Shown piece after piece: positions 4,166 through 32,251 of a DNA stretch of 48,786 bases (within the stretch, counting starts at the first letter, position 1; each line of letters begins with the position of its first letter). The DNA is from a virus: the IMG/VR virus record IMGVR_UViG_3300042154_003331, positions 1 to 48,786 of that record. One strand, given 5' to 3'. Both the position numbers and the translations under genes were made by a program. The notes under the pieces are model-generated. The model did no database searches. It was not told the DNA's origin and saw nothing but the letters and a program-made list of their open reading frames with translations.

Positions 4166-6174
4166 TGTACAAACCAATACCAAACGGGAGTAGTGTTTTT
4201 ATAAAACCCGTACCCGATGAAAAGCCCGTAGAATGTTTTATACCCCCCGTAGGTTTTATCCAAGACGAAACGGGAAAGCTAATAAAGATTGGCGTGGCAA
4301 GAAGGTCAAATATTTTTGCTGATTGCTATTGGGAGTTAGACAAACGATGGGCTTTATATAAACAATGGAAAGCCGAAGAAGATAAATTTAAAAAAGGGAA
4401 CCCCGATTTTCAACACTCCGAACTTACAAAGTTTATTAACGATTGTTGGCGGTACCGCTTGGGTGGCTTTTGGTTTTACAACAATGATGAGCCAACATAC
4501 ATTACGGGGCATTATTGGTACTACCTAAGCGTTTACTATATGGAAACGGGTAAGTTGCCCGAATACAGAAATTCCGACAAACTATTCTTTTATTTTTGGC
4601 AGTATTGTAAGGAATGTCCATATAGCTATGGTATGCTTTACCTTACGATGAGAAGACAGGGTAAGTCCAGTAAGGCGGGTGCTATTGCATTAGATATGAC
4701 ATCAAGCAATGCAAGCTTTAATAGTGGCATACAATCAAAGACTGATGACGATGCCAAGTCTTTATTTAGAAAAAACGTAATTGCCCCTTATAGAAAATTC
4801 CCTTACTTTTTTCAAGTAGCCAAAAGTAATATAGCTACAAATGGTAAAGTACCCGAAAAAGAATTGAGATTTATAGGCAATAAGAGCGATGAGATAGATG
4901 ACGAACTTGATAGCAAGGTAGATTTTAAGCCTTCGTTAGCCGTAGCCTATGATGGTAGCAGATTAGGTTTTTATATTGCAGACGAGGTTGGTAAGCCGCA
5001 AAACGTAGATATAAACCAACGATGGGACATTGTGCAGTTCTGTTTGCGTGATTTTGATGGTAGCATTATAGGTAAAACAATCCATACAACAACGGTTGAG
5101 GATATGGGCGGTGCCGCAGAAAAGCTAATGACGATGTGGCAAAACAGCGATGTTCATAGCATTACCGAAGATAAAAGACAAACGGGAACGGGAATGTTTA
5201 GGTTCTTTTTGCCAGCGCAAGAAAGCTTAGATGTAGATAAATATGGCAACCCGCTTGTAGAACAAAGTATGCAAAAGATACTTTCTGAAAGGAAAGCTAA
5301 GGAAAATGATAGCCGAGCATTGGCATCAGTAATCCGTAAAATGCCTACTACAATTAAGGAAGCGTTCCAATCAGATAGCGAGAATTGCGCCTTCAACCCC
5401 ATTATCCTTACTAAAAGGGAAGACGAATTGAAATGGACTAACGATGGTCTTTACGAAACGGGCAACTTTTATTGGGAGAATGATGAAGAGTTTGGTAAGG
5501 TAAGGTTTATTGAAAACCCCAATGGTAGATTTAAGGTAGCATACCACCCCGATGAGTCTATACGAAATGCACATATAATTAAATTTGGGTCAAGGATGCC
5601 GCTAAATAATGCCGAGTTTGCTGCGGGTGTCGATACATTTGACCATATATTAAAAGAGGGCGTAATGTCAAAGGGTGCAATTGTTGTAATTAAAAAAACA
5701 TCGCCTATGCACCCATCTTTGCTTGACGAAGGTGTTGCTTGTTTGTATAAGAATAGACCCGAAAATCCCGAAGACTTTTATATGGATGTGGTAAAATGCT
5801 TATTGTATTATGGTTGCGAAGCGTTAATCGAGGTAAATAAACCTGCACTACAATACTTTTTAAACAAAAAGGGATTAGAACACTACTCTGCATTGTTGCC
5901 ATCTAAAAACCAAAGAGGTATTTCGGCATCTACGCAATCAAATAGTTATTTGGCGGACATAACCGACCAATACATTAACAATTATTGCGATAAAGTAAAT
6001 TTTATAGACCTAATACAAGAGTGGAAAGCCTTTGATGTAGGCAATACTACCAAGTCGGATGTGGCGATGGCTTTTGGTTATGCAAGGATGCTTTGTAAAG
6101 TCAAAGAGGAAAAGCTGCAAAACAAAGCAAAAATCACAAACATTAAACAAATAATAAGTTGGTACAAGAATTAA
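4165..6174 (+). CDS. terL: terminase large subunit
   Basis: The DNA-packaging motor: an ATPase joined to a nuclease, acting at the portal. A Walker A-like motif RRQGKS lies at residues 163-168 and a Walker B-like YIADEVG around D273/E274. The nuclease half shows AGVDTFD with D490, EALIEV, and a last acidic residue D632 in KSDVAMAF. The length of 669 residues is at the long end for the family; an N-terminal extension of about 130 residues precedes the ATPase. It overlaps the preceding gene by one base, and a late-type promoter element follows at 6173, overlapping its stop codon. Confidence 0.88.
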   Translation: MYKPIPNGSSVFIKPVPDEKPVECFIPPVGFIQDETGKLIKIGVARRSNIFADCYWELDKRWALYKQWKAEEDKFKKGNPDFQHSELTKFINDCWRYRLGGFWFYNNDEPTYITGHYWYYLSVYYMETGKLPEYRNSDKLFFYFWQYCKECPYSYGMLYLTMRRQGKSSKAGAIALDMTSSNASFNSGIQSKTDDDAKSLFRKNVIAPYRKFPYFFQVAKSNIATNGKVPEKELRFIGNKSDEIDDELDSKVDFKPSLAVAYDGSRLGFYIADEVGKPQNVDINQRWDIVQFCLRDFDGSIIGKTIHTTTVEDMGGAAEKLMTMWQNSDVHSITEDKRQTGTGMFRFFLPAQESLDVDKYGNPLVEQSMQKILSERKAKENDSRALASVIRKMPTTIKEAFQSDSENCAFNPIILTKREDELKWTNDGLYETGNFYWENDEEFGKVRFIENPNGRFKVAYHPDESIRNAHIIKFGSRMPLNNAEFAAGVDTFDHILKEGVMSKGAIVVIKKTSPMHPSLLDEGVACLYKNRPENPEDFYMDVVKCLLYYGCEALIEVNKPALQYFLNKKGLEHYSALLPSKNQRGISASTQSNSYLADITDQYINNYCDKVNFIDLIQEWKAFDVGNTTKSDVAMAFGYARMLCKVKEEKLQNKAKITNIKQIISWYKN

Positions 6175-6193
6175 TATCGTATATTTTAGTATA
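6173..6193 (+). promoter_or_regulatory. late-type promoter element 1
   Basis: AATATCGTATATT at 6173-6185, four bases, then TATA at 6190-6193 (TAGA in the other four copies). Its first base lies 34 nt before the portal start codon. It is one of five copies in the window. Confidence 0.65.
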
Positions 6194-6206
6194 ATTAAGT
6201 GTATAT

Positions 6207-8861
6207 ATGCTACCATTTCAAGCGTTCCCAAGCGATAAAGACGACCCAAAAGTAAAATCGAAAAAAGCGTGGTTGTTACAATATTGTAAGGCTGCCTTAT
6301 CTTCTTATGCCGATTTACCTACGGGTAGTATTGGTTTTAGGTCAAGGGATAACTATGAAAAGAATAAAATGTATGCTTTAGGCAGACAGCCCGTAGCAAA
6401 ATACAAAACCATTTTCAATCACGGAGATGACCCTAAAAATACTTTATTAGTTACTGATTGGAGCATACGACCAGAGATAAAGAAATTAAGGAGAATTATT
6501 GTTAGCTTGGTAGAGCAATTGCCTTATAATGTTCAGATTAATCCTATTGACGATTTGGCAAAGGATGAAATGGAGATGGAAATGTTGCGTCAAGAAGCAA
6601 AGCTATTGGCACGCCAAGCCATAGCACAGCAAGGACAACAAGAGATGTTGGAATTGCCAAGCCTTAAAGTATATCCCGATGAAGCAAAAGACTTTCAAGA
6701 ATTACAAATAAAAGAGTTAGGTCTTCGCCACGCTACTTCAATGGATGCGGAATTAATTACCGAATTGGTTTTTAACGCAAACAATTATGATGACTTAGTG
6801 GGAGAATTTGTGCAAGATTCCATTGACTGCGGTATATGTATTGCTAAAGATGAAACCATTGACGATAAGACAATTGGCATTACAAGAGTTGACCCAAGAG
6901 ATTTATTGATTAGCTATTGCAGACGTTCTGACTTTAGTGATTGGAAATACATAGGCGAGATTAAGCGTATGCCTGTTTCTAAATTGCTTTCTGTTACCAA
7001 TGGTCAAGTGTCAAGAGAAGACATTGATGCCATTTATAATATTGGTATGAACGCTATGGTTCAATGGGGTTTAGGAATGGACTTCGGCGATTGGGGTACT
7101 TCATCAGAAACATTTTACAACAGAGGTATTGTGTATGTAGTTGAAATAGAGATACGTTCAACAGACACAATTGTACTTGAAGAAAGGGATATTAAAAACG
7201 GCACAAAAATATATGCTTTAGGCAATCCTACTAAAAAGGCAAAAAACCCAAGCAAAGAAAAAATAATCGAGAACATTTATTGTGCTAAATGGGTAGTGGG
7301 TACAGAGATATTGTATGACTTTGGTAAAAAGCGCAATATGAAGCGTGAGCAAACTAACGAAGCTTGCGTAAAAAGTTGTTACCATATTCAAGCGTGCGAT
7401 TTTTACGATATGGTTGCAACAAGCCGTATTGAAGAATTGATACCTTACACAGATGCCATACAATTAGCTACATACAGACTTCAACACGCATTGAATACGG
7501 TTGTGCCTAAAGGCTATCAAATTAACTTTGATGCTTTGGAAGCCGTAGATTTAGGTGCGGGTGGTGCAGAAGGCAAGATGACCCCAAAGGATATATTAGA
7601 CTTGTTCTTTGAAAGAGGTATCTTATTGACCCGCCAACAAAGTGTTGATGGTAGAAATATCCAAAGAGCCATTGAAACATTAGAAGGTGGTGTAGGTAGT
7701 GAAATTCAAGAGTTTTGGACTTTAATTACCCAAAACAAAACAATGATGCGTGAAAGCTTAGGCTTAAATGAACTTACAGATGGTAGCACGCCTAATGCCC
7801 GTACACTTACAGAAGTAGCCAAAGCAGCAACTTCGGGTACCAACAACGCATTGTCTGACTTATTTAAAATGCAGCGTAGGTTGATAAAAGAACTTACCGA
7901 AAGTATTATTATTAGAGCGCAAGACATTGTAAAGTTTGGCAACGACAAGTATTTTGTACACGCATTAGGGAGCGGAAGCATAAAGCTACTAAAGAATATA
8001 AAAGACATTCACAAGTATATTTATTCTGTTTCTATTGAAGAAAACCCTTCACAAGACGATGTGGCTTCATTCCAAAACCAATTGGTAGTAGCGCAGCAAA
8101 GCGGAGAAATTACAATAAGCGATGTTTTAATGTTGGACAATATCGACAACCTTAAAATGAAGCAAGCATATTTAAACTATGCTGTGTCTAAGAATAAAGA
8201 AAGCAAGCAGAAAGAGTCTTTGCAAATGCAAGAAATGAATGGTAAAATTCAGCAAGAGTCAGCAATGATAGCCGAACAAGCCAAGCAGCAAACGATACAA
8301 ATGCAGATTGAATTGCAGTTGCAAGCCGATTTACAAAGAATAATGGCAGAGAAAGAGAAAGATGTAACGATAGAGCAAATTAGACTTGAAGGCAAGCGTA
8401 TTGATGCGACAGGTAGAGTTGAAAGCGCACAAGCACAAGCAGAAGGTAGAGATATAGCTAACAAGCGTGATAACATTGTAAAGCTTGAACTTGCCGAAAC
8501 ACCTAAAGATAAAGAGATAGTTGAGAACATTGTTGCAGACAACAAGACCTCTACAATTGAGCCTCAAACAGCGTTTGGTAACGAGATTAAGCTACAAAAA
8601 TTCAATTTCTTGCCACCAGAAGAAGGCGAAGAAGCGGAAATGGAAAACGAAATGCCAAATCAAGAAATGCCAATGCCTAATCAAGGCGGTATGCCAATGC
8701 CCGAAGAAGAGTACGAAAATGAGGAAGAGAATATGAACGAAGAGGAAGGTATGGAAGAAGAAGAAATGGGCGAAGAAGAAGAAGAGATGGGTGAGGAAGA
8801 GAACAATATGAATAATGAAGGTATGGTTAATCAGCTTGGTATGCAAGGCATCCCAATGTAA
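6207..8861 (+). CDS. portal protein
   Basis: An 884-residue protein directly after terL and before scaffold and capsid genes. The N-terminal two thirds have the mixed alpha/beta look of podovirus portals. Helical stretches at about 640-790 are rich in Q, K and E (coiled coil). The last 90 residues are very acidic and methionine-rich, with repeated EEEMGEEE. The portal forms the dodecameric ring at the packaging vertex. The long acidic tail is unusual and may act in assembly or be removed. Assignment is by position, length and general resemblance; no short signature motif exists. Confidence 0.78.
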   Translation: MLPFQAFPSDKDDPKVKSKKAWLLQYCKAALSSYADLPTGSIGFRSRDNYEKNKMYALGRQPVAKYKTIFNHGDDPKNTLLVTDWSIRPEIKKLRRIIVSLVEQLPYNVQINPIDDLAKDEMEMEMLRQEAKLLARQAIAQQGQQEMLELPSLKVYPDEAKDFQELQIKELGLRHATSMDAELITELVFNANNYDDLVGEFVQDSIDCGICIAKDETIDDKTIGITRVDPRDLLISYCRRSDFSDWKYIGEIKRMPVSKLLSVTNGQVSREDIDAIYNIGMNAMVQWGLGMDFGDWGTSSETFYNRGIVYVVEIEIRSTDTIVLEERDIKNGTKIYALGNPTKKAKNPSKEKIIENIYCAKWVVGTEILYDFGKKRNMKREQTNEACVKSCYHIQACDFYDMVATSRIEELIPYTDAIQLATYRLQHALNTVVPKGYQINFDALEAVDLGAGGAEGKMTPKDILDLFFERGILLTRQQSVDGRNIQRAIETLEGGVGSEIQEFWTLITQNKTMMRESLGLNELTDGSTPNARTLTEVAKAATSGTNNALSDLFKMQRRLIKELTESIIIRAQDIVKFGNDKYFVHALGSGSIKLLKNIKDIHKYIYSVSIEENPSQDDVASFQNQLVVAQQSGEITISDVLMLDNIDNLKMKQAYLNYAVSKNKESKQKESLQMQEMNGKIQQESAMIAEQAKQQTIQMQIELQLQADLQRIMAEKEKDVTIEQIRLEGKRIDATGRVESAQAQAEGRDIANKRDNIVKLELAETPKDKEIVENIVADNKTSTIEPQTAFGNEIKLQKFNFLPPEEGEEAEMENEMPNQEMPMPNQGGMPMPEEEYENEEENMNEEEGMEEEEMGEEEEEMGEEENNMNNEGMVNQLGMQGIPM

Positions 8862-8865
8862 TAAC

Positions 8866-8886
8866 AATATCGTATATTCGTTTAGA
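8866..8886 (+). promoter_or_regulatory. late-type promoter element 2
   Basis: AATATCGTATATT at 8866-8878 followed by TAGA at 8883-8886. The first base is 37 nt before the ATG at 8903. Confidence 0.7.
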
Positions 8887-8902
8887 ACAACACAATTAAT
8901 AT

Positions 8903-10000
8903 ATGTCAGAATTTGATTTAATCGAACACAACGAAGAAGTGTTTGATGATTTGCCTACAATTGATGGCGAAGTTAAGATGGTAGCCCCAATGAGTTTTGT
9001 AACAAGTGATTACAAGCCCGAAGAAACTACCGAGAAAATCGAAGAAAAACCTATTGACGAAAAGCCAATAGAAACTGAAAAACCCATTGAAACCGAAAAG
9101 CCTATTGAGGTTGAGAAGCCAATAGAAAGCAAAGTAGAAGAAGTAAAAGTTGAAGAAAAGCCAATTGAAGTCGATTACGACCCATTTGAAAAGCTTGGAT
9201 TGACTGACGAACAGCACAAAAAGTATTTAGAAAAGTTTATTGATGCGGTAAAATCAAATTCGGTAAACGACTTTTTAGCTAAAACAGCAGTTAATTATGA
9301 TGAAATGTCAGTAGAAGAATTACTACAATACGACATTGCTACCAAGCTAAAAAAAGAGTATCCTAACGCAAGTAAAAAAGCGATAGAGCTAACAATTAGA
9401 AAAGAAACGGAGCGAATCCGTGATGAATACAATATTGCAAGCGCAGACGAAGAAGAGGCAGAAATAGGAATGGAAATGCTAAAAATGAAGATGGATAAGG
9501 TTCGAGAGGAACTGAAAGCCGAACAAGCATTATACGCACCACCAAAATATGAAGCTAAATCTTTGGATGTAGACCCCGCACAAATAGAAGCTCAAAAGCA
9601 AATGGAGCAAGTACGGAATGAGTTTGTGCAATATGTAGAAAAAAGCCCCGAATTACAAGAGGTCGAGAGGACTAAAGTGGTTTCGTTTGGAGATTTCAAA
9701 GTTGATTTACCCGATGGCTTTAATGCAAAAGAACAAACGATTGATGTCAATAAATTCCTTACACCATTTTTTGGCGCAGATGGCAAATTGAATATGTCTA
9801 AGTGGTTGAAAACAATAGCTATCGCTAACGACCCCGACAAACACTTGCAAGATGCAATAAACTATGGTAAATCTTTAAAAGAAAAAGAGCGATTTGATTC
9901 TTTAAGAGGTCTTGATAAGGTAGCTAACGATGCTTTAGACAATAATAAAACGGGGGAGTATGTAGTAACAAACGTGCGACACACAAGTAGTCGTAATTAA
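8903..10000 (+). CDS. probable head scaffolding protein
   Basis: A 365-residue, very acidic, helical protein between portal and major capsid genes, the usual place of the scaffold. Residues about 40-85 contain five or six repeats of the form KPIE(T/V)E, a flexible charged linker. Charged helices follow at 150-240, and the rest is compact. Family members guide procapsid assembly and leave before maturation. It has its own late-type element upstream and ends 31 nt before the capsid gene. Confidence 0.6.
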   Translation: MSEFDLIEHNEEVFDDLPTIDGEVKMVAPMSFVTSDYKPEETTEKIEEKPIDEKPIETEKPIETEKPIEVEKPIESKVEEVKVEEKPIEVDYDPFEKLGLTDEQHKKYLEKFIDAVKSNSVNDFLAKTAVNYDEMSVEELLQYDIATKLKKEYPNASKKAIELTIRKETERIRDEYNIASADEEEAEIGMEMLKMKMDKVREELKAEQALYAPPKYEAKSLDVDPAQIEAQKQMEQVRNEFVQYVEKSPELQEVERTKVVSFGDFKVDLPDGFNAKEQTIDVNKFLTPFFGADGKLNMSKWLKTIAIANDPDKHLQDAINYGKSLKEKERFDSLRGLDKVANDALDNNKTGEYVVTNVRHTSSRN

Positions 10001-10031
10001 TTTTTCTTAACCCCTTTAAATCTTAATCAAA

Positions 10032-11399
10032 ATGCCTACAATAGGACAAATTAACAAAAGATACGTATCAGCAATCGACCCGATGCTTGATATTCGTGAA
10101 ATCAGACAAGCAATTACAGACATTCAAAACGACACTTCGTTTATGTCTTTGCTTACAAGCCTTGATGGTAAGACAATTTTCAAGCCACAAGAAGACTCAA
10201 TTGACAGCGCAATTTTCCACTCTTGGCAGAATGACGCATTAAGTGATGTAATTTCATTCACAGGTGCAACTATTACAGGTAGTGGTACAGCTTCTTTGAG
10301 TGTTACAGGTTTGCCCGTAGCATCACAAGGTAAACTTATCGTTGGTGATTTGCTTCAATTGCAATCAAACAACGTGGTTCGTGTAATGACTACTCCACTT
10401 GCAACCTCTTTTACCGCAGTAACCGTTGATGGTTCTAATGCAGTTCTTACAGCTTCACAAGTTGCAAGTATCATTGGTAACGCATTTGAGTCTGGTTCTG
10501 CTGGTCCTTCTCAACGCCGTTGGGGTTTGACTAAATTATCAAACGTGGTTCAAGTTATGCGTGATAGCATCCAAACTACCGACATCGAAATGCAAAATGG
10601 TGTTGAGTTTGAAATCAATGGTCAAAAAAGAATCTTGCCTTACGAATCTATCCGCTTGCGTGATAAGCATATGTTGGGTATGAGTGCATCAATGTTCTTG
10701 GGTCGTTTAAGTACAACTCGTTTTACCGATGCTTCTCCAACAATGGCTGGGTCTAATGGTAATGGTATCCAAACCACTCGTGGTCTTGACCAATACATTA
10801 CTCAATTCGGTATTGCTGATGCAACAGCTACTTCTGGCACTTTGGCTCTTGCTGACCTTGAAGATGTAGTAACTAAATTGGTTGCTAATCGTTCTACATA
10901 CGATTACTTGATTGGTTGTAGCACACCCGTAAGCATTAAGTTCTCTAACTTATTGAAAAACTTACCTTCAAGTGGTGCTGTAAACTCTGCTCGTATCAAT
11001 GTACAAGGTAAAGAAATTGACCTTGATTGTACAAGCTTCACTTATGGTGGTTTCAAATTTGCTATTAGCAACTTAGGATTGTTAGACAATGCTCAAATTA
11101 TGAGCTCTGGCGGTACTTTGTTACCACAAGCTAAAGCAGCATACTTTATGCCACTTGGTAAAGCTAAAACCGTTAAGAATGGTTTTGCTCCGTTTATGTC
11201 TTACAAATACCAAGCACAACCAACTGGTTCAAGTGCTAACCGTGTTGTAAATGGTATGACCGAAGAAATCAGAACTGATGGTCAAGCTCCAATCCCAACA
11301 AGCACAACTCGTGTACTCACTATGACAATGACTACTACTGCTGGTCTTGAAATTTTGAATCCACAAGCGTTCTTGCGTTTGGATAATATCTTGTCTTAA
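10032..11399 (+). CDS. major capsid protein
   Basis: A 455-residue protein behind the scaffold candidate. It begins QINKRYVSAIDPM and has a beta-rich, Thr/Ser/Gly/Val-rich segment (about 75-150) that may be an inserted surface domain, then an HK97-like mixture of long helix and sheets. Codon use differs from its neighbours: arginine is mostly CGT and glycine mostly GGT, whereas nearby genes favour AGA. This is typical of the most highly expressed phage gene. A hairpin at 11408-11434 follows. Confidence 0.82.
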   Translation: MPTIGQINKRYVSAIDPMLDIREIRQAITDIQNDTSFMSLLTSLDGKTIFKPQEDSIDSAIFHSWQNDALSDVISFTGATITGSGTASLSVTGLPVASQGKLIVGDLLQLQSNNVVRVMTTPLATSFTAVTVDGSNAVLTASQVASIIGNAFESGSAGPSQRRWGLTKLSNVVQVMRDSIQTTDIEMQNGVEFEINGQKRILPYESIRLRDKHMLGMSASMFLGRLSTTRFTDASPTMAGSNGNGIQTTRGLDQYITQFGIADATATSGTLALADLEDVVTKLVANRSTYDYLIGCSTPVSIKFSNLLKNLPSSGAVNSARINVQGKEIDLDCTSFTYGGFKFAISNLGLLDNAQIMSSGGTLLPQAKAAYFMPLGKAKTVKNGFAPFMSYKYQAQPTGSSANRVVNGMTEEIRTDGQAPIPTSTTRVLTMTMTTTAGLEILNPQAFLRLDNILS

Positions 11400-11407
11400 T
11401 TAATAAT

Positions 11408-11440
11408 AAGGGTGGAGTATATTGCTTCACCCTTATTTAC
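11408..11440 (+). terminator. hairpin after capsid gene
   Basis: AAGGGTGGAG (11408-11417) pairs with CTTCACCCTT (11425-11434) with one G-T pair and a 7-nt loop. The following sequence is T-rich but lacks a clean T run, so it may be a weak terminator or an mRNA-stabilising end. Confidence 0.6.
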
Positions 11441-11468
11441 TATATTTTTAATTTAAACAACAATAACT

Positions 11469-12347: not shown

Positions 12348-12368
12348 GCCTTAATAAATATGATTACC

Positions 12369-12412: not shown

Positions 12413-12426
12413 AATAAACAATAGAA

Positions 12427-14049: not shown

Positions 14050-14050
14050 T

Positions 14051-20000: not shown

Positions 20001-23000
20001 ACTTAGGCTTAACTAAAAAAGAAATTGATTTTGCATTAGAACAATCTGCTGAACCACAATCAAAACTTGAACAAGCATCATCATTCATTCGTGATGCAGC
20101 AGCTAAACTTCGTGAACAACATCAAAAAGACCTTGACGACCCAAATGCTTTACAAAGACAAGGTGGATTAAGCAAAAAACAAGTTGCTATTGCCCTTGAA
20201 AAGATTGCAGACATCATTGATGCTGTTGGCGATGCTGAAAAGGCAATCAAACAATTCCTTGATGGTATTAAAGACCCAAAAGAGCGTACTGAATACGAGA
20301 AAGAGATAAACAATTTCTTTTTAGAAGAGTATGGCGAAAAGGAAGAGGTTAAACCCGTTCCATTTGCAGAAATACCAAAGGCAAGACTTGACGAAGTAAT
20401 GATTGAAGGAGAAGGAAAAGTAGACAAAACTTTTGCTAATAGGGTAATAGAAAGCAAGGCGGAAGAAGCTGTTAAGGTAGCAGTTGCAAATCAAGGTCTT
20501 GAAAGGGTTGTTGATGACTTTGCAACAGCAGAAGTAAATGCAAATAACTTAGTTGAAAAGTACGGCTACGATATTGCTTTGTCAATGGCTATTGAAGGAG
20601 AGATTGATGGTGCTGCAAGGTCGGCTATATTGGGTATGGAATACCTAAGACGTGATGAAGCTGTAAGAATAGCAAAAACAGCATCAGAGCTTCGCAAAGC
20701 CACAGAAGATTTAGCAGAATGGGTTAGCTATATTGGTTACTTACAAGCAAAAACGGGTTCTGGTAATGCTTATTGGGCTAAGTTTTACGCTGACAATCCC
20801 GATTTAGGTCTTACGCTTAAAGACAAGATTAATCGTTGGGAAGAAACGGCGGGTAAGGCTATTCCTATTGACATAAAAGAAAAATACGAAAAGCTTGATG
20901 CAGAATTAAAAACAGCTCTTGAAAGAGTAAAAGAACTTGAAGCGCAGAAGCCATCAGATGAAATGATGAAGGCTATTAAAGCTATTCAAGAGCAAGAAGC
21001 TAAAAAATTAAGCAAGCCTAATCTAACAAAAGAGCAAAGAAACAGAACGTCAGACAAGCTAATGGCATTGGCTGAAAAGATTAGAAAATCTGAAAATAGC
21101 GGACTTGTATTATCTACACCAATACCTCCACATATCATATCAGATAGTGTGAAACTTTTAGCACAAGGCGTAAAGGTTGGGGAAGCTATTGGGGATACAA
21201 TGGCTAAAATATATAAACTTATTGAGGGTGGTATAAAAAAGAAACTAACAGAGGAAGAAAAGAAAAAGGTTAGCGATTATTTTACCTCGCAATTAGAGGA
21301 AAACGTAGAAACAGATAGTCAAACAGGCAATCCTATTACTAATTCTCTAATTAGAGATTATGTATTGCAAGGTTTTAATACGCCAGAGGCATTGCTTGAA
21401 AAACTTATGGAGCATTATCCTAACAAATCAGAAAGAGAGGTTAGAGATATGGTGTCAAAGTATGGTCAAGAAATAACAAAAACAGCCGATGAGATTGATA
21501 GAGAAATAAGGCTCATTAAAAATGTTTTCAAAACAAAATCTCAATTAGAGGACATTGCACAAGGCATTAGACCTAAAAAAAGAATATTGCCTGTAATATT
21601 AACTCCTGCCGAAAAAGCAGCAGAAGAGATACGTAAAGCTAAAGAGCGCAAGATGGTAAAGGATGTGCGTCAAGCATTAGACAATATGGAAGTTGATTTA
21701 CCTACTTTGGATAATGAATTGCGTAATAAACTTGATAAACAAGAGGCTACTTTAAGTAATAAAATAAAAGATTTAGAATTAGCTATTAAAGATGGTAAAG
21801 AAATAACTAAGAACGAAAAAACTAAACTTACAAGCGAAGAAATAGAAAAATTAGAATTACAGCTTGAAGATACAAGGAAGATTTATAATGAAGTTTTTGG
21901 TAAAAAACCAATGACAGAAGGTGAGCGTAAACTAAAATCTTTGCAAACAGAGCTTGAAAACCTTTACAAAGAAAAAGAAGAAGTTGAAAAAGCGGAGCCT
22001 AAATATACCACTTCTGAAAAAATGGATATTGAGGCATTGCAAAATGAAATTGCAGCAAGAAAAAAAGCATTGCGACTTGAAGGTTCTGAAATGCAAACCG
22101 CAGAAGAAAAGCGAGTTGAAAAGTTGCAAAAAGAATTAAATGCTATTGGAAAAGAAAAGCCAGTAACCGAAAAAGAGGTTATTGATAGAAGTCAAAGAGA
22201 AAAAGAAATAATCAAAAAAATTGAAGAAGCTAAAGCCAAATTAGCTGAAACAAAAAAGATTGTGGAAATTGACTCTAAAATAGCAGAAACAGAAAAAAAG
22301 ATACAAGAGCAAAATTTTGAAGCGCAAAAATCTCAATCAAAAGAATATTCTGATGCTGTACAAAAGAAAATAGACGAATTAAAAGATGTTAGAAAAAATC
22401 TTAACGAGGCTAAAAAAGAGTTTGAAAAAAACCTTAAAACAGATGAAGAAAGAAGAATTGAGGTTTTAGAGAAACGACTTGATAATCTTAAATTTGGAGA
22501 AAGAAAACCATCAAAAGAGAAAATTGCCCGTACTGAAAAGGAATTGTTATTGCTTGACGAAATAGCAAAAGAAAAAGAATTGCAAGGGCTTACAAAAGGA
22601 AAGGCAACTGAAAAAGACCTTTTAGAAACAAAGCTTATTGCTAAGGAAAAGCAAATACAAAAATTGCGTGATAAACGTGATGGAATAGAAACGATTGAGC
22701 CAGAAAAGCAAAAAACCTTTAATGCGGAAATTGATAAGCTTGATGCAGAAGCGCAAGAGTTAAGAAAGCAAATTCGTGAACAAAAGCCAAAAGAACAAAA
22801 AGTACCTTACTCTCTTGAAGCGGTAGATAGTGCTATTGCCGCAAACGAATTTAAGTTAAAAGGCGCACAAGCAGATTTAGAAGTTGTTAGAAAAAGAGGT
22901 CAAGACACTTCTAAAATTGAGGCAGATATTGAAAGATATAAAAATAATGCTAAAACCCTTGAAGGGTTAAAAACCGAAATTGGAAAAATAGAGGCTAAAA

Positions 23001-24583
23001 GAGTATTGCAGACATTTAAAAATCTTGCTAAACGTAAAGAATACTACGAGCAAAGAAAAGCAAGTGGTCAGTATGCTAAAAAGCCAAAGAATGTATTGCC
23101 TTTAACAACTGAACTTACAAAAGCCCTTTCGGAGGTAGATAGATTAAAGTTTGAAGAGCAAAAGCTTTTGTACTTAGCAGAAAAGCAATCTATGAGTGGT
23201 GCCGCTAAAGTAAAAGACCTTGCTGTTGGTCTTTGGAGCGTTCCTCGTCTTGCATTAGCAACGGGCGAGTGGTCGTTTGTTGGTATGCAAGGAAGAAGAT
23301 TTACTGCTTCATATCTTATCAAAAACCCAAGCGTATTAAAAGATGCTTTTAAAAATGCCGCTAAAAGTTGGGTGTCTGGAGAGTTTGCGCAAGAAATGGA
23401 AAGCCGAATTAAAAACGACCCCGAATACCATATTATTAAAGGTTCGGGTCTTGATTTAACAGAGCAAAGTTTTAAAACCGCAGCAAATGAAGAGATAGCT
23501 TACAATAACATTGGTAAAATATTTTGGAGATTTTTAGCTTCACCATTTGTAGTTGCCGAAAAAATGTACAAGTTAAAAACAGGCAAAGATTTAGGGTTTA
23601 TTGAAAAAATTGATAAATTCAATCCGTTAGTAAAATTTGAACGTGCAGCAAGTGGTTACTTAAACACTTTAAGATACGCCGCTATGTCTGATATGGTTGC
23701 AGTTTTCAAACAAGAAGGGCTGTCTTTTGAAAAAAACAAGCAAGACTACAAATCTGCTGCAAACTACATCAACTCTGCAACGGGCAGGGGTGGTAGTGGA
23801 ATAGAAGCTTTTCAAAAAAATGCAGAAGTTTTATCTAAATTCTTCTTCTCCCCAAAAATGTTTATGACTGAACTGCAATTGGGGACAAGCCCTTTAGGTT
23901 TGGCTTACATTGCAAGTATGAAAGACCCGTCAAATATTGCAAAAAGAGAAGCCTTTAAGCATCAGTTAAGATATATGTCGGTATTATTAAGTGCGGGTTT
24001 ATCTGCAACAATAATTGCTTACATAAGAATGGGAAGAACAGACGAGAATGATGACGGAACGGGAGTTGAATTTAACCCTGCAAGCTCAAATTTTGGTAAA
24101 ATAGTATTTCCCAATGGAAGAACGGTTGATTTCTTTAATGGTGCGCAAAGATATATTGTATTGTATGACCGATTGTTTGGGCAAAAAGAGTTCAAAAATA
24201 GAGAAGGTGTTATAAAAGACGTTGGCGTTAAAGGCAGCCCTTCAAAGTATGATATAATTATGAATATCCCTAAAAATAAACTTAATCCTGCGTTGGGGTT
24301 TGCTACGGGATATTTGGATGCTCAATCAAGAAAAGTTGGCTCGGAAAAATATGACGATTATGGTCAAGTTTGGGACACGGAAGAAGAACTTAAAAAGTTA
24401 TCAAGTCCAATTTTCTTTCAAATGGTAAATAACGCTTACGAGCAAGACCCTACAATTTTAGATGGAATTGGTTTATTTGGAGCGTTTTTTGGTAAAGGAT
24501 TTAACGTAGAAGAAAAGAAAGCCCCAAAGCCACCAAAAGTTAGAAAAAGAAAGTCGAATTACGGGTTTAGGTATAATCCATAA
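14051..24583 (+). CDS. giant polyvalent/ejected protein, 3510 residues
   Basis: A single uninterrupted frame of 10.5 kb. In order: a P/A/Q-rich start (1-240); a Gly/Ala-rich hydrophobic stretch near 366-395; a linker area in which AKTVAQ occurs at 1052, 1286 and 1411 at perfect 19-bp DNA repeats; a GNAT-like domain (about 1078-1190) with RGEGLA at 1119-1124 and KWYESKGF; long charged helices; coiled coil (about 2550-3020); a C-terminal part with NYINSATGRG (3238-3247) and a membrane-like segment (about 3309-3327), resembling the C-terminal 'LPD38' type region of large polyvalent phage proteins. Such proteins are thought to enter the cell with the DNA and carry several activities. Specific catalysis here is unproven. 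Confidence 0.7.
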   Translation: MPKLTIPQRQSNQDDATYAQIVQNSIREQRPYLSDDDIISLAQVKISTMPSVQPSAQPKAQAAPKVEVAKVEKPQPFKSTTEMVDLFVPKQQVVAPKTLAEVARGLANKKVVTDPMESGIVARQETIKKLPEQPAIMPSLGDPNVAAGTVRMLEKFIPPQQPKEQVAPIEVGGFYNPYDANLPTQENFDPAQAQRVRQNLPQAQSVRESFIAQPQAPQIDVFDVEAEKQLPKGSPNEKMVYADVLRKNDDKIKTFEASKAAAQTPTDDFEATINKKDLSFGNTQRASLMKAKLGGDMTAIESSLNEYQETPEFKRDVIKAANGNKAKFKEAAQLVLDNKANEYAFAPTKLQKKMQQFSDWAAVNNAPLYVTTKTLGAGLKGFSDVGAFGASLIGATRRSMEQILDGRGELTILDNFAAANAKAQKMSSGYIPQVQSEKASGLTQGLSDVTSIVAAIGAPMSVVKPVSIFGKAKNLLSLGTRGESAIAKGLSAEAAITTSGANKTLLEAAKVLQSKPANMVAQVLDGAATNWAIMGSSSFDAQRQKYLDMGFTEQQANRRAFGMTSLTNLLLAMPGVLRPHEASITQKIFSTGSKKETLKASLKQAAYFGGDMTLLRSIENTLDDNAKREQGIKIENTPFSELIKENGKKALVDAGAGFVMGLMARGKYKQSEMQLNGIVEAFKNPEQLSLDVQKDVANGRMTKEQAKTFQDFLTTIEPQYQKTLNETIEKNGKQVPKYNPQIAVKIAIEKTKSQQAAEALKNLNASVETKTIYETDKNGNIVEKTVYRHKDGKLYETEEASTKGRRISLLATKTNAEQRARRLEAGYNIENKLVAGWEMADLVDANSLNGKAKEGQREAIMANAPYEAVEINVNDFAKQPEIAELVSQIESGKLDLSNVEENNIAPPTIDAEGNVIDGKKVVANQIVKSAFERSGGTITFMKPITNEAYTEAANEAFESKVGDTAPITEGLPENEVIGVNAMSDAFDKVIENGGDAAEGLVEAAKEGLQTFVEPQVVAERLKDIKGEDTFSEPIIEAAVNKAVKAEPIEAEAKTVAQFIKNINNSAKILKTVDGKKVSNYVSKEGVEVTISNDEDGGYVNGIQVQGDIMLDFIGNDTKRGEGLATKELNKIIEEADKNNMSISLIVDSDQAVRGTKSEKGLTNKELKKWYESKGFIFDKDSRYGYKPKPTEDISVYKKAEYIAKPKEVTSENIEYHSSPYDLQEAFDQDRLKEGTFHEDGDGYIFKMENNKLKEVKNVKYIPFENNKFVDKIVYTEPVQDKKNNIAKTVAQSESNPALRDVESTAKALENIEKGLSDRKAILTVSVSGRDASVGDVTKIGIGNDTKIKLTENEKKEVKRQFKLNNDGDLTAAEFNQWRKEFSDKVLNRVKNEINNGNLESLLSKEQTPTEAKTVAQLRAEEKAEIAATDPNDKEALGEIYNRYDKLITPLLEKEKAAAREKGVKDMSVAEKMRQRAAKEVEVVEEVVEEKPIEEPNEEAVVETPKDLSITQVKHNRLAAIKKSYNALTKSKKSSEQGKTLMRQINGLATELGYEVGIKNKGDGSIKVLNSKGSDIKAIAVKSELPKPSNIEVERAKFLIEKGIAFYGGDVMAERTEFTSLTRAEVEKGVADIEKGKMTIPAIKLIKELNEMYESKTIPTIQGGGGSSTKRGSIELDKIVEDGFPMQLELTEKDIQFINENEATLAEEYDAWYEGLSNIEKLEHLNIVTDAKETENRKAEINASGEGKANVSNEKDASGKEIELSQKEKQLVKEEAKLSKLQQSLEVVGKENQFDIFGGKPSDSMLFKTSVSDAEKVYKAQKQVVDALKTEISDIKSEIQTAKDSEVTANQIAMELPEVIGEGFDFDKLFAEQEAETKGEKQKSEQELIEQEREDAYQKSSFSKKWAKTYSEAKEKLIEQYNNAKKQKEEIESKSIKSAGNKKVYVGSELDGQNVTIDYINKKRKDAQIKNAQSEMDSAKKDLENLGLTKKEIDFALEQSAEPQSKLEQASSFIRDAAAKLREQHQKDLDDPNALQRQGGLSKKQVAIALEKIADIIDAVGDAEKAIKQFLDGIKDPKERTEYEKEINNFFLEEYGEKEEVKPVPFAEIPKARLDEVMIEGEGKVDKTFANRVIESKAEEAVKVAVANQGLERVVDDFATAEVNANNLVEKYGYDIALSMAIEGEIDGAARSAILGMEYLRRDEAVRIAKTASELRKATEDLAEWVSYIGYLQAKTGSGNAYWAKFYADNPDLGLTLKDKINRWEETAGKAIPIDIKEKYEKLDAELKTALERVKELEAQKPSDEMMKAIKAIQEQEAKKLSKPNLTKEQRNRTSDKLMALAEKIRKSENSGLVLSTPIPPHIISDSVKLLAQGVKVGEAIGDTMAKIYKLIEGGIKKKLTEEEKKKVSDYFTSQLEENVETDSQTGNPITNSLIRDYVLQGFNTPEALLEKLMEHYPNKSEREVRDMVSKYGQEITKTADEIDREIRLIKNVFKTKSQLEDIAQGIRPKKRILPVILTPAEKAAEEIRKAKERKMVKDVRQALDNMEVDLPTLDNELRNKLDKQEATLSNKIKDLELAIKDGKEITKNEKTKLTSEEIEKLELQLEDTRKIYNEVFGKKPMTEGERKLKSLQTELENLYKEKEEVEKAEPKYTTSEKMDIEALQNEIAARKKALRLEGSEMQTAEEKRVEKLQKELNAIGKEKPVTEKEVIDRSQREKEIIKKIEEAKAKLAETKKIVEIDSKIAETEKKIQEQNFEAQKSQSKEYSDAVQKKIDELKDVRKNLNEAKKEFEKNLKTDEERRIEVLEKRLDNLKFGERKPSKEKIARTEKELLLLDEIAKEKELQGLTKGKATEKDLLETKLIAKEKQIQKLRDKRDGIETIEPEKQKTFNAEIDKLDAEAQELRKQIREQKPKEQKVPYSLEAVDSAIAANEFKLKGAQADLEVVRKRGQDTSKIEADIERYKNNAKTLEGLKTEIGKIEAKRVLQTFKNLAKRKEYYEQRKASGQYAKKPKNVLPLTTELTKALSEVDRLKFEEQKLLYLAEKQSMSGAAKVKDLAVGLWSVPRLALATGEWSFVGMQGRRFTASYLIKNPSVLKDAFKNAAKSWVSGEFAQEMESRIKNDPEYHIIKGSGLDLTEQSFKTAANEEIAYNNIGKIFWRFLASPFVVAEKMYKLKTGKDLGFIEKIDKFNPLVKFERAASGYLNTLRYAAMSDMVAVFKQEGLSFEKNKQDYKSAANYINSATGRGGSGIEAFQKNAEVLSKFFFSPKMFMTELQLGTSPLGLAYIASMKDPSNIAKREAFKHQLRYMSVLLSAGLSATIIAYIRMGRTDENDDGTGVEFNPASSNFGKIVFPNGRTVDFFNGAQRYIVLYDRLFGQKEFKNREGVIKDVGVKGSPSKYDIIMNIPKNKLNPALGFATGYLDAQSRKVGSEKYDDYGQVWDTEEELKKLSSPIFFQMVNNAYEQDPTILDGIGLFGAFFGKGFNVEEKKAPKPPKVRKRKSNYGFRYNP
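17204..17222 (+). repeat. perfect 19-bp repeat in giant gene, copy 1
   Basis: GCTAAAACCGTAGCACAAT encodes A-K-T-V-A-Q at residues 1052-1057. Identical copies lie at 17906 and 18281 in the same frame. It opens a 702-bp cassette that carries the GNAT-like domain. Confidence 0.9.
17906..17924 (+). repeat. perfect 19-bp repeat in giant gene, copy 2
   Basis: Identical to copy 1, 702 bp (234 codons) downstream. It separates the GNAT-bearing cassette from a 375-bp cassette of unknown function. Confidence 0.9.
18281..18299 (+). repeat. perfect 19-bp repeat in giant gene, copy 3
   Basis: Identical to copies 1 and 2, 375 bp (125 codons) after copy 2. The upstream base context (GAG before it, GAA before copy 1) is also shared in coding sense (E-AKTVAQ), which suggests copies 1 and 3 were once a single junction. 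Confidence 0.9.
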
Positions 24584-24602
24584 TATCGTATATTTTATTA
24601 GA
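24582..24602 (+). promoter_or_regulatory. late-type promoter element 3
   Basis: AATATCGTATATT at 24582-24594, then TAGA at 24599-24602. The first base is 35 nt before the ATG at 24617; the element begins inside the stop codon of the giant gene. Confidence 0.7.
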
Positions 24603-24616
24603 TAAAACTATTTACA

Positions 24617-25330
24617 ATGGCAGTTTACGGACAAGAATTTTATAACCCATACAACACGATGAGTGGGTATGCAAACCAAATGCCTCAATTTTATGGGCAG
24701 CCATCGGGAGCCGCAGAGGTTGTTGCTCCAAAATCCTCTGCGAGTGGTATGAGTGGTATTGGTGGGATAGCAGGTGGTGCCATACAAGGCGTTGTCGGTG
24801 TGGTTGATTGGATAAAAGCGGGTAAAGAGCGTAAAAAATACTTAAAAGAAAGCGAGCAAGCACTTGCGGGACTACCACAATACGCTGCTTCTCAATACGC
24901 AAAGACTGACTTAGCAAACGCACAATCACAAGCTAATGCTATTGACCCTTCAATTATGATGCAATACAATAAATTGCAACAAGGAGCAGCAAATACAGCA
25001 GCTATGGGTCAAAGAAACGCAATGAGTGGTGCAGAAGCAATTAACGCAGCAATAACAGGTCAAAACATTGCAGCAAGCCAAGCCCCTTCAATAGCAGCAC
25101 AGCAAACACAATATGCTATGGCTAACAGAGGTGCTTTGTCAAGAGCATTGCAAGGTATGACTGCGGAAGAGCAAAATGTATTTAATAGTAAAAACGCTAT
25201 TGCAAATCAAATGTTTAACTACAAATTGGGCAGATTGGGTGCAGCAGAAGCAAGAAAAGCAGATGCCATCAAGAATGTTGCAGGTGGAGTTGGAGCAATT
25301 GGTACTGGCGTTGGTGGCTTTTTAAAATAA
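24617..25330 (+). CDS. probable internal virion/ejection protein, 237 residues
   Basis: Rich in Ala, Gly and Gln. Residues 42-66 form a Gly-rich hydrophobic segment (SGIGGIAGGAIQGVVGVV) and the C-terminus is a second one (VAGGVGAIGTGVGG). The middle is Gln/Ala-rich helix. This composition, a small membrane-active protein next to giant ejection proteins, is like T7 gp14-type internal proteins that form the channel in the host envelope. It has its own late-type element. A palindrome and the sigma-gene promoter follow. Confidence 0.55.
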   Translation: MAVYGQEFYNPYNTMSGYANQMPQFYGQPSGAAEVVAPKSSASGMSGIGGIAGGAIQGVVGVVDWIKAGKERKKYLKESEQALAGLPQYAASQYAKTDLANAQSQANAIDPSIMMQYNKLQQGAANTAAMGQRNAMSGAEAINAAITGQNIAASQAPSIAAQQTQYAMANRGALSRALQGMTAEEQNVFNSKNAIANQMFNYKLGRLGAAEARKADAIKNVAGGVGAIGTGVGGFLK

Positions 25331-25347
25331 TGTCATTTTTTATTAAT

Positions 25348-25378
25348 AAAGATAATGTAACATTTTTCATTATCTTTG
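25348..25378 (+). promoter_or_regulatory. palindrome overlapping promoter of the sigma-like gene
   Basis: AAAGATAATG (25348-25357), ten bases, then CATTATCTTT (25368-25377) is a perfect 10-bp inverted repeat. Its right arm contains TATCTTTG (25371-25378), a perfect TAnnTTTG box, 15 nt before the ATG at 25393. No clear TTTG box lies 19 bp upstream. It may be an operator on the sigma gene promoter, a terminator for the preceding gene, or both. Confidence 0.55.
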
Positions 25379-25392
25379 TTCTTTAAAAATAA

Positions 25393-26304
25393 ATGGCACA
25401 AAAGGTAAATAAAGCAATGTCAAACGAATGTATATTTGAACAATATACGTTAAACAACGACACGCAATACCTTGATGAAATAGCTTTACAGAATAAGCCA
25501 TATATTAAGACAATAGCAAAGCAACTTGCCTTAAAACAAACATCCTTTTTGCACTCAATCATTGAAATAGAAGATTTGGAGCAAGAAGGATTTTTGGGTT
25601 TTAAAGAAGGTTTGAGTAGATATAAAGCAGATAGTGGTAAGAAGCTTGTAACCTATTGTGGATATTGGGCTAAAAAAAGAATGAATGAGCATTTAGCTTC
25701 GTTTGAGAATACGGTTTATCACCCCGATTGGATTAGAAGGTGGGCATTGTATGGTAATGTTTCAAAGTTTGTCAATCAAACAGAGTACCAAAAGATGGTT
25801 GTTGATGGGTATAAATCAAATATTGCAAAGCTACCAAAAGACAATGACGAGCCGATAGATGACGAAGCAGACAGTAAAATAAAGCATTTCTTAGTTGAAG
25901 AAGAGCAGTTTGATTTTGATATTGCTTTTTGCAATGTAGAGTATGATTATTTACGATTGATAGTAAGTAAGTTTAACCAACAAGAAAAAGACATAATTGA
26001 CAATATTTGGCAAGACCCAAACAAAGCGTTTAAGGCAAATAAAATTACATTAGAGTTATTTAGCAAGATTAGAAACATATACCAAACACTTAAAAAACAA
26101 GCTCATTTTGCGTCTGTTTTAGAAAATGTAGGGGAATGTTTATTGAGTAACGAAACATACGAATTTTGGGCTAAAAGCGGGTCTTGTGGAGATAAAAAAT
26201 ACAAGTACGAAGCTAAAGATATTTTTAAAATAGAAAAAACAAGGCTTGACATTAGAATAAGCAGAATATCCGAATCATTAATTCTTTTAGAAACATATAA
26301 ATAG
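25393..26304 (+). CDS. sigma-70 region 2-like transcription factor
   Basis: Residues 61-101 (DLEQEGFLGFKEGLSRYKA.., KLVTYCGYWAKKRMNEHL) follow sigma-70 regions 2.1-2.3 closely: D-L-x-Q-E-G-x-x-G-hydrophobic, Y/F-D-x-x-x-G, K-h-x-T-Y-x-x-W/Y-W-h-h. Region 2 binds the clamp helices of RNA polymerase and the -10 element. The remaining 200 residues do not show a clear region 4 helix-turn-helix; a weak candidate is FNQQEKDIIDNIWQD at about 196. Placed among late genes behind a host-type promoter with a palindrome, it may direct host polymerase to the AATATCGTATATT elements. That link is inference. Confidence 0.68.
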   Translation: MAQKVNKAMSNECIFEQYTLNNDTQYLDEIALQNKPYIKTIAKQLALKQTSFLHSIIEIEDLEQEGFLGFKEGLSRYKADSGKKLVTYCGYWAKKRMNEHLASFENTVYHPDWIRRWALYGNVSKFVNQTEYQKMVVDGYKSNIAKLPKDNDEPIDDEADSKIKHFLVEEEQFDFDIAFCNVEYDYLRLIVSKFNQQEKDIIDNIWQDPNKAFKANKITLELFSKIRNIYQTLKKQAHFASVLENVGECLLSNETYEFWAKSGSCGDKKYKYEAKDIFKIEKTRLDIRISRISESLILLETYK

Positions 26305-26305
26305 T

Positions 26306-26701: not shown

Positions 26702-26732
26702 CGATAAAAAAAATATTTTTTTTCAAAATTAA

Positions 26733-26763
26733 CTTGGAAAATTAAATTTTGTTATTACCTTTA
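26733..26763 (+). promoter_or_regulatory. host-type promoter in intergenic region
   Basis: CTTG (26733-26736), 19 bp, TACCTTTA (26756-26763): one change from consensus in each box. An inverted repeat CAAAATT (26724-26730) / AATTTTG (26745-26751) flanks the upstream box and could be an operator. Confidence 0.45.
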
Positions 26764-26805
26764 CACAAGTTTTCATATCTAAGATATAATTTGTTTTTTG
26801 TTTTT

Positions 26806-26837
26806 AATAGCCTTCGTTTCTACGGGGCTATTTTTAT
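26806..26837 (+). terminator. intrinsic terminator in a leader
   Basis: AATAGCC (26806-26812) pairs with GGCTATT (26826-26832), followed by TTTATTT. Together with the promoter at 26733 it would give an RNA of about 65 nt, which also contains the palindrome ATATCT-A-AGATAT (26775-26787). A second TAnnTTTG box (TACCTTTG, 26852-26859) lies beyond it, close to the gene at 26875. Confidence 0.55.
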
Positions 26838-26874
26838 TTAATAAACATTACTACCTTTGTTAAAAGTAAACAAT

Positions 26875-27210
26875 ATGGAAATTGTTAAGGATTGGGCGGG
26901 CAACATAGTTAAAGTGGGGGATAGGTGCCGCCTTGTTCAAATAAAAACAATTGACAACGAGTGTTGCTTTGAAGCATTGGATGGATTTAAAATATTAAAG
27001 GGTAAGAATGGAAGTCTTAAATTGCGCATAGAAGAAAACATTGGTAATTTTAAAGCAACCTATTTTTACCCTTTATCTTTTTATTGTGAGGTAAATTCTG
27101 ACGATTGTATTCTTGCTATTGAGGGCGTTTCAGACAATGAAAAGCTATACCTAAAGCACTTAATGAATAGTGCTGTAAGAACTGCCAAAAAAATTATTTC
27201 TAATAAATAA
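26875..27210 (+). CDS. hypothetical protein, 111 residues
   Basis: I choose the ATG at 26875 (MEIVKDWAGNIVKVGDRCR); a TTG at 26857 is in frame but lies inside a promoter -7 box. The N-terminus 'GNIVKVGDRCRL' looks like a small beta-barrel start. The C-terminus is a basic helix. It is the last rightward gene before the inverted tail block, controlled by its own promoters and separated by a terminator. Function unknown. Confidence 0.6.
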   Translation: MEIVKDWAGNIVKVGDRCRLVQIKTIDNECCFEALDGFKILKGKNGSLKLRIEENIGNFKATYFYPLSFYCEVNSDDCILAIEGVSDNEKLYLKHLMNSAVRTAKKIISNK

Positions 27211-27230
27211 AAAAACCCCCGAAGGGGCTT
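27211..27230 (-). terminator. intrinsic terminator between convergent genes
   Basis: On the minus strand GCCCC-TTC-GGGG is followed by seven T's (27217-27210 side), a classic terminator for the tail gene ending at 27233. In the plus direction the same stem is followed by CTTCTCTATT and is weaker. Confidence 0.8.
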
Positions 27231-27232
27231 CT

Positions 27233-30961: not shown

Positions 30962-30971
30962 AACTTAAATT

Positions 30972-31316
30972 TTAAGGAGTGTTTACCGTAACTAATACCC
31001 AAAGTCCACCACCAGTTGCGGGGAATGATGTTATATAGTTTGGGGCTCCACCTTGACTTCGATAAGAATAGATACCGTTTGATGCTCCCACTCCATTAAC
31101 GTGAACAAATAACGTGTCAAGTGCTGACAACGCTTGCATTTCTGATATATTTGAAACATAATAAATGCCACGCTCCAAAAGCATTGTGCGAACATCTAAA
31201 ATTATTTGTTTTAGACTTGCAGCAGTATCATTCCACTCAACCTTTGTTGAAGGGGTGCTTTTAACGGCTGCTATTGCAGCATTTAATTCCGATATTGTAA
31301 TTGTTGTGATTGGCAT
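30972..31316 (-). CDS. small tail-fibre-associated protein, 114 residues
   Basis: The N-terminus (TITISELNAAIAAVKSTP) is a helix of the kind seen at the start of tail fibre proteins. The second half is Gly-rich and beta (GIYSYRSQGGAPNYITSFPA, GGGLWVLV), as in short fibre or baseplate-adaptor domains. Its start codon overlaps the stop of the fibre gene by one base, and it ends 10 nt before the nozzle gene. Confidence 0.5.
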   Translation of the reverse strand: MPITTITISELNAAIAAVKSTPSTKVEWNDTAASLKQIILDVRTMLLERGIYYVSNISEMQALSALDTLFVHVNGVGASNGIYSYRSQGGAPNYITSFPATGGGLWVLVTVNTP

Positions 31317-32182
31317 TAGTGAGAAATTTGATAGTCAAAATTAAGTGTTATATCTGATGGGTTTGGCGTTAGCAACGCTATTCTAAAGGTAGTGTCTGTT
31401 TTAGCTGTAACAAAAAATCCATTGTTTAAAAACAAGGCAGCAGTTTCATTATTTGTTGCTGTAATAAAAACCTTATAAGAATTAACGTGTTGTGTTGCAC
31501 CAAAGGTTACCGTAAAGCCCGTTGCCGATGTCGCCAATAAAGTGCTTACAGAGCCAGATAAAACACCAACGCTTTTTGTTTCTCCACCCGCATCATACCG
31601 CAATAGCATTTTATCAGTTGAGTTGTAGAAAATTTCGTTTGCTACAAGTGTTTTTGCGTTTATCTGTGTTGTTGTCAATACGGGTAGTCTAACCCCTCTT
31701 CCTACACCTAAGCTATCTAAAGATGCGCAATCCAACCATAGACCTACCGATGCTGCTGTTTTACCAATAGCAACTGCGCTATTTTCGTATCCAACTGCGG
31801 GGATAATGTCATCGTTTGCTGCACCTTCTTTCCATACACCACTTAGTGTGTTTTGAGAAGCAAATATTGGTCGCCATTGACCGCCTTCATTAGAAGTTAT
31901 GGCACCAAAAACAGATGCGTCAATATTTGGGTAGTATTTATAAAAATTAAGACCAAGCACACCGTTTACGCAAACAGCATATTGAGAGTCTGCTCCGCCC
32001 GCTAATGCCATTGAAGTAGTGTCCGCAAATGCCATTATTCCTCTTGAAACAATGTTTTGGTTTATTGCGGTTAATACCGCTTCCAATCCACCTGTACCTA
32101 ACCATTTTACAAGTGATTGTTCGTTTTGCATAGCAGCATCTATCTGCTGTTGTGTTACCTTTGGTGATGAAGGATTGCTCAT
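31316..32182 (-). CDS. tail fibre protein, 288 residues
   Basis: N-terminal helix (VTQQQIDAAMQNEQSLVKWL), Gly/Ala-rich middle, and a module at about 165-200 (VRLPVLTTTQINA.. EIFYNSTDKMLLRYDAG) that closely resembles the LPSMTTTQ-NA...YNS modules of the large fibre at 34693. It ends in a beta domain. First gene of the inverted tail operon, with its own late-type element 34 nt upstream. A host-binding role is inferred. Confidence 0.6.
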   Translation of the reverse strand: MSNPSSPKVTQQQIDAAMQNEQSLVKWLGTGGLEAVLTAINQNIVSRGIMAFADTTSMALAGGADSQYAVCVNGVLGLNFYKYYPNIDASVFGAITSNEGGQWRPIFASQNTLSGVWKEGAANDDIIPAVGYENSAVAIGKTAASVGLWLDCASLDSLGVGRGVRLPVLTTTQINAKTLVANEIFYNSTDKMLLRYDAGGETKSVGVLSGSVSTLLATSATGFTVTFGATQHVNSYKVFITATNNETAALFLNNGFFVTAKTDTTFRIALLTPNPSDITLNFDYQISH

Positions 32183-32195
32183 ATTGTATTTCTTT

Positions 32196-32216
32196 TCTAC
32201 TCGAATATACGATATA
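32196..32216 (-). promoter_or_regulatory. late-type promoter element 5 (minus strand)
   Basis: Read on the minus strand from 32216: TATATCGTATATT, four bases, TAGA. Its first base is 34 nt before the ATG at 32182. It is the only copy on the minus strand and it faces the only minus-strand virion operon, which supports a directional function. Confidence 0.7.
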
Positions 32217-32230
32217 GTTTAGCCCTTTTT

Positions 32231-32251
32231 AATATCGTATATTCGGTTAGA
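32231..32251 (+). promoter_or_regulatory. late-type promoter element 4
   Basis: AATATCGTATATT at 32231-32243, then TAGA at 32248-32251. The first base is 33 nt before the TTG at 32264. It is back to back with element 5, 14 bp apart. Confidence 0.7.

Follow-up and report, generated by a model that had tools for sequence, protein, structure and literature searches.

Regulation of virion genes in a podovirus-like record

How are the virion genes of a virus switched on when five of them, or the operons that they head, are each preceded by a copy of the same 21-bp element? A first-pass annotation of this DNA had proposed that the element is a phage-specific late promoter, leaving what reads it aside. 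Here "the window" denotes the whole stretch analysed, a virus record of 48.8 kb that has no end repeats. PHROGs and Pfam scans of its main ORFs identified a large terminase, a portal, an SU10-type capsid protein, tail proteins and an endolysin, with the replication arm on the minus strand. The terminase and portal are ~20-28% identical to those of phages of Flavobacterium, Cellulophaga, Maribacter and Tenacibaculum, and because of this resemblance the host is probably a member of the Bacteroidota. The capsid protein matches the family of SU10, which is described as a podovirus of the elongated C3 morphotype (PMC4281155). Of the window, 95.2% is coding sequence and 4.8% non-coding DNA.

The genes next to the elements, which are numbered along the window, are as follows.

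6207..8861, plus strand: portal protein gene (phrog_6547, E 1e-64), downstream of element 1
8903..10000, plus strand: scaffold gene, named by position, with gene order as in relatives; downstream of element 2
10032-11399: major capsid gene, next after the scaffold gene (SU10_MCP match)
24617..25330, plus strand: internal-virion-protein-like gene of 237 aa, its name kept from the first-pass annotation; downstream of element 3
31316..32182, minus strand: first gene of the tail-fibre operon, named by position, with a homologue in contig L221; downstream of element 4
32264..32899, plus strand: connector or virion structural gene (phrog_14543) with homologues in relatives and a TTG start codon; downstream of element 5

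The product of 24617..25330 had no significant family match in the PHROGs and Pfam scans, and no single-subunit RNA polymerase of the T7 type was found in either scan of the window's main ORFs. A helix-rich protein of 3510 aa, encoded at 14051-24583, gave no family match over threshold; a virion RNA polymerase within it seems unlikely, as it has neither such a match nor a DxDxD motif. Elsewhere in the repeat inventory, 13-mers from GCTAAAACCGTAGCACAAT are present three times in the window.

Five copies of one element lie in non-coding DNA

The element reads AATATCGTATATT-N4-TA(G/T)A and has exactly five matches in the window. Both the coordinates and the distances from first base to start codon given by the first-pass annotation proved exact, and there are no further copies within three mismatches.

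6173..6193, plus strand: element 1, AATATCGTATATT TTAG TATA, 34 nt before the portal gene; core CGTATATT at 6178-6185; predicted transcription start site (TSS) ~6192
8866..8886, plus strand: element 2, 37 nt before the scaffold gene; predicted TSS at G 8885
24582..24602, plus strand: element 3, 35 nt before the internal-virion-protein gene; predicted TSS at G 24601
32196..32216, minus strand (first base 32216): element 4, TATATCGTATATT, 34 nt before the tail-fibre operon; predicted TSS 32197
32231..32251, plus strand: element 5, 33 nt before the connector gene (TTG start at 32264); predicted TSS at G 32250

Shuffled sequences contained a mean of 0.52 matches, and none of 100 shuffles reached five. 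With a position weight matrix of the five sites, scanned over the whole window, the sites scored 28-34 bits and the next best site 10.8 bits. The 13-mer AATATCGTATATT is the most repeated in the window, and an unsupervised motif search of the upstream regions ranked the element first. Many copies inside coding sequence would have counted against a promoter; instead all five lie in non-coding DNA, for which P is ~3e-7 given the coding share of 95.2%, although sites 1 and 3 overlap a stop codon by 1-2 bases. Each is co-oriented with the gene that it precedes, and later genes within the same operons lack the element. Elements 4 and 5 (32196-32251) stand back to back, 14 bp apart, as a putative divergent promoter, on which two polymerases would probably overlap.

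The constancy of the distance to the start codon, to which the first-pass annotation had drawn attention, holds within the window at 33-37 nt. This spacing is partly forced by the short gaps that hold the elements (32, 41 and 33 nt), the divergent gap of 81 nt being the exception.

A diverged core occupies the same place in relatives

Queries with single proteins (portal, capsid or sigma) retrieved no relatives, and an alignment of three portals found ~30, at 43-47% portal identity. The close relatives lack the 13-mer, and a diverged core, CGTATTAT or CGTAATAT, occupies the same place. Orthologous genes downstream of this core, matched by BLAST, include those for the portal, scaffold, connector and tail-fibre homologue, with the core 21-49 nt upstream. 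At the scaffold position of element 2 relatives carry CGTATTAT or CGTAATAT; connector homologues have CGTATTAT 25-28 nt upstream; and the L221 homologue of the tail-fibre gene has it at 28 nt. L184 has one copy of the core before an endolysin gene and a second before a tail-fibre-like gene. The support that the first-pass annotation had itself named, presence upstream of the same genes in related genomes, was thus observed.

Across the clade the core is CGTATTAT or CGTATATT, the window having the latter form. Alignment of 50 distinct sites (34 once near-copies were removed) gave the consensus WWnA(A/G)CGTATTATAT. The two bases preceding CG vary by phage: AT in the window, AA in G027, AG or GG in G022 and G031, and AG or TG in G026. 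The trailing TAGA, present in the window apart from the TATA of one copy, is not conserved in relatives. In five relatives the upstream count of CGTATTAT was the highest of the 840 permutations of its letters (9, 6, 5, 3 and a tied 2), and in the window CGTATATT, with an upstream count of 5, was among the top permutations. Outside the clade, there was at most one upstream site per genome among 13 sampled relatives. Conservation before the same genes within the clade, together with this near absence outside it, supports the late-promoter reading. A few of the relatives' copies sit in the presumed early arm, including a G027 copy 110 nt upstream of the gene that precedes sigma, so strictly late use does not hold in relatives.

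The exact 13-mer has one well-placed copy among distant relatives, in G001. A search of IMG/VR for the exact 21-bp pattern returned 23 contigs with one copy each, which we took as chance.

These comparisons bear on two rival readings. The fixed distance had left open a translation signal or hairpin acting at the RNA level, and the narrow range within the window fits such a signal. In the clade, however, the distance runs from 21 to 49 nt, and the core occurs in tandem, 22 bp apart, before a single gene of 143 aa (G026 41581/41603; G027 19313/19291). The hairpin is not conserved, downstream genes of the same operons do without the element, and the element sits where host -7 boxes sit. Variable distances, tandem copies and loss of the dyad weaken the RNA-level signal, which we regard as the least probable of the readings weighed here.

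The second reading takes the near-perfect palindrome AATAT-CGT-ATATT as an operator, bound by a repressor or activator dimer of the phage and overlapping an ordinary promoter. The window sites do keep 4-5 of the 5 dyad pairs. Relatives, however, have the core and no dyad (on average 2.0 of 5 pairs, against 1.98 +/- 0.08 in shuffled sequence), and by this test the palindrome was rejected as an operator or hairpin; we consider a dimer operator highly improbable. A separate palindrome, GTGTCGTTAACGACAC, recurs upstream of small genes in the Manatee Spring phage (L031/L032, MW202828; ~45631-50116) and is likely an operator there.

A putative sigma factor is encoded in the same window

The first-pass annotation overlooked a gene for a sigma-factor-like protein within the late block.

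25331..25392, plus strand: gap before the sigma gene, with a host-type -7 box, TATCTTTG, 22 nt before the ATG and inside a hairpin
25393..26304, plus strand: gene for a putative phage sigma factor of 303 aa with sigma-70 region 2 (Pfam Sigma70_r2, phrog_351)

The match to Sigma70_r2 scores 28.1 bits against a cut-off of 24, and the best sequence matches of the protein in the PDB are SigA proteins. Structure prediction from the single sequence was of no use (pLDDT 35). A model built from an eight-sequence alignment has pLDDT ~80 over most of residues 11-105 and retrieves sigma factors from the PDB; its C-terminal two thirds are poor, and only domain 2 is usable. The sigma proteins gave no match to Sigma70_r4, the family of the region 4 that reads -35 boxes, within a C-terminus that is poorly modelled and maybe too diverged. 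The strong AT-rich hairpin (25331-25395, between the internal-virion and sigma genes; -13.1 kcal/mol, z -4.4) could be a terminator, an operator or a promoter. In G026, TACCTTTG lies 22 nt upstream of the gene that precedes sigma.

In the genome search, Sigma70_r2 exceeded its curated cut-off in the window, G022, G026, G027 and G028, and the sigma proteins of two relatives fall just below it if scanned alone. The window protein is distant from those of the clade (hhalign probability 70, 27% identity over 93 columns). Orthology between them is unproven because the gene is placed differently, in the late block in the window and in the opposite arm in relatives.

The element and the sigma protein co-occur in one clade

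In the portal tree the element-bearing genomes form one clade with support of 100/100. Within the clade, a sigma-70 region-2 protein is encoded by every contig of sufficient length to judge, and the contigs that gave no match are fragments of 13-30 kb. The region-2 family was found in none of 23 portal relatives outside the clade, and in none of G001, G002, G003, G004, G007, G019, G021 and six named phages (W01-W06). L280, a 61.6-kb contig reached by a sigma query, has eight well-placed sites. We found no relative within the lineage that had kept the element and lost sigma, or the reverse. Since the element-bearing genomes form a single clade, sigma and element appear to have been gained once, and their correlation counts as one evolutionary event.

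Three genomes reached through the terminase (G013, G016 and G018) have a different sigma and lack this element. A second element, TTACAAnnTAAATACGA-N8-GATAATA, occurs in up to ~11 copies before small genes in phages also reached through the terminase, L144 (G013), L148 (G016), L154 (G018) and L161 (G021), for example at 41541-52447 of G018.

Architecture of the putative promoter and the host boxes

Beyond 5 bp upstream of the core, all alignment columns stay at or below 0.42 bit. Given this lack of a strongly conserved column, the element would be a single-element promoter without a -35 box. ECF promoters have a -35 element, and the absence of a conserved one counts against a host extracytoplasmic-function (ECF) sigma factor that is activated in infection and reads CGT as its -10 box. 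Such a reading draws on a Flavobacterium motif, SM6, with a conserved CGT box in its -10 region that has been ascribed to ECF sigma factors (PMC9723704). The distribution of the element, however, tracks a clade of phages that encode their own sigma, and we judge a host ECF sigma very unlikely.

The relation to host primary promoters is closer. In relatives without the sigma gene, TAnnTTTG precedes the scaffold gene by 30-39 nt (G001, G042, and the elemo, Manatee and Panino phages), and in several relatives outside the clade it also precedes other structural genes at the same distance. The TATATT part of the element sits where these boxes sit; measured from TA, the median distance to the start codon is 28 nt for the element core and 30 nt for the host boxes of relatives without the element. 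Compared with the primary promoters of Flavobacteriia (TTG-N17-23-TAnnTTTG), the element shares the distance from start codons and, in part, the TA and TT positions, whereas the TTTG end and the TTTG at -33 are lost and CG and an A/T flank are gained. As the first-pass annotation had noted, the sites do not match the host type: no TAnnTTTG stands before the five genes and there is no consistent TTTG upstream. The -7 box of Flavobacterium psychrophilum sigma-A lies at -12 to -5 from the TSS (PMC9723704), and applying this register places the predicted TSS on the G of TAGA at four of the five window sites.

Given the existence of hybrid CGTATATTTG boxes, the strongest rival is a model in which the host primary sigma acts with a phage activator, with TATATT as a degenerate TAnnTTTG and AATATCG as the activator site. 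The core lies exactly at the place of TAnnTTTG in relatives, and hybrid CGTATATTTG sites occur in L188, G022, G031 and G001. The clade form CGTATTAT, however, lacks TTTG, and TTG is highly conserved in the host box (PMC9723704). In addition, the clade has a sigma gene, whereas the sampled sisters with TAnnTTTG before structural genes lack one. On balance we assign this alternative a low probability.

The hybrid CGTATATTTG boxes match the phage core as well as the host TAnnTTTG (L188 6742, G022 21310, G031 5409, L038 ~17728). They precede the pre-terminase operon in L188, G022 and G031 and a late gene in G001, and are possibly an evolutionary intermediate.

Proposed mechanism and comparison with known systems

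We think it likely, on the sequence comparisons above, that the element is a late promoter of the extended -10 type without a -35 box, and that the host core RNA polymerase recognises it when bound to the phage sigma. From the same comparisons we infer that the sites are promoters, that this sigma reads them, and their start points and timing; the link between sigma and element rests on their co-occurrence, which has a single origin, and on promoter architecture. In this model, the host sigma would direct transcription of early genes through the TAnnTTTG box, and the sigma gene would be transcribed by the host sigma from its own box (TATCTTTG) or by read-through. The phage sigma, with region 2 and no recognisable region 4, would then replace the host primary sigma on the core enzyme. 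The resulting sigma-core enzyme would open CG-TATWWT promoters, whose core is CG-TAT(T/A)(A/T)T with an A/T-rich flank just upstream. Counted from the first T of the core hexamer, transcription would begin ~12 nt downstream, and the leaders would be 14-18 nt long. The phage thus probably redirects host RNA polymerase to its late genes.

A close likeness in kind is to phiEco32 (Kuravirus), a podovirus with its own sigma and single-element late or middle promoters. Its gp36 is a sigma without region 4 that reads the single element tAATGTAtA before late genes, with the TSS 6-8 bp downstream, and its early genes are served by the host sigma (PMC8948821). The window differs in its core (CGTATTAT/CGTATATT), in a host type whose primary promoter is TAnnTTTG, and in terminase and portal matches that fall among Bacteroidota phages. 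The window sigma has no detectable similarity to gp36 (blastp E 3.6, hhalign probability 0.1), and membership in the phiEco32 sigma family was rejected on this ground. Salmonella phage 7-11, a phiEco32-like podovirus, likewise has its own sigma, gp47, and late promoters at equivalent genome positions. Its promoter, unlike the window's element, is bipartite, GTAAtg-(16)-aCTA, and its sigma has region 4 (PMC8948821). T4 has an 8-bp late promoter that resembles an extended -10, lacks a -35 element and is read by gp55, a small divergent protein of the sigma-70 family (PMC2988020). The window is alike in its short putative promoter without a -35 and its small divergent sigma-70 family protein; in T4, activation works through the sliding clamp gp45 and gp33. 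By analogy, the window sigma may work as phiEco32 gp36 and T4 gp55 do while belonging to a different sigma lineage.

Few descriptions exist of late gene control in Bacteroidota podoviruses, and a limited search of the open-access literature found no report of a phage sigma with a late promoter in this group. A compact promoter with its cognate sigma would allow a direct test of how a phage takes over the polymerase of a host with unusual promoter rules, and would supply expression parts for Bacteroidota that are independent of the host primary sigma. More tentatively, and with less confidence than in the promoter itself, each phage of the clade may possess its own sigma-promoter pair, the bases before CG and the hexamer (CGTATTAT to CGTATATT) shifting as sigma diverges, in an orthogonal series that would lead from the host -7 box via CG-TATATTTG hybrids. 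If so, the clade would amount to a natural set of mutually orthogonal transcription systems for Bacteroidota, each with a single-element promoter.
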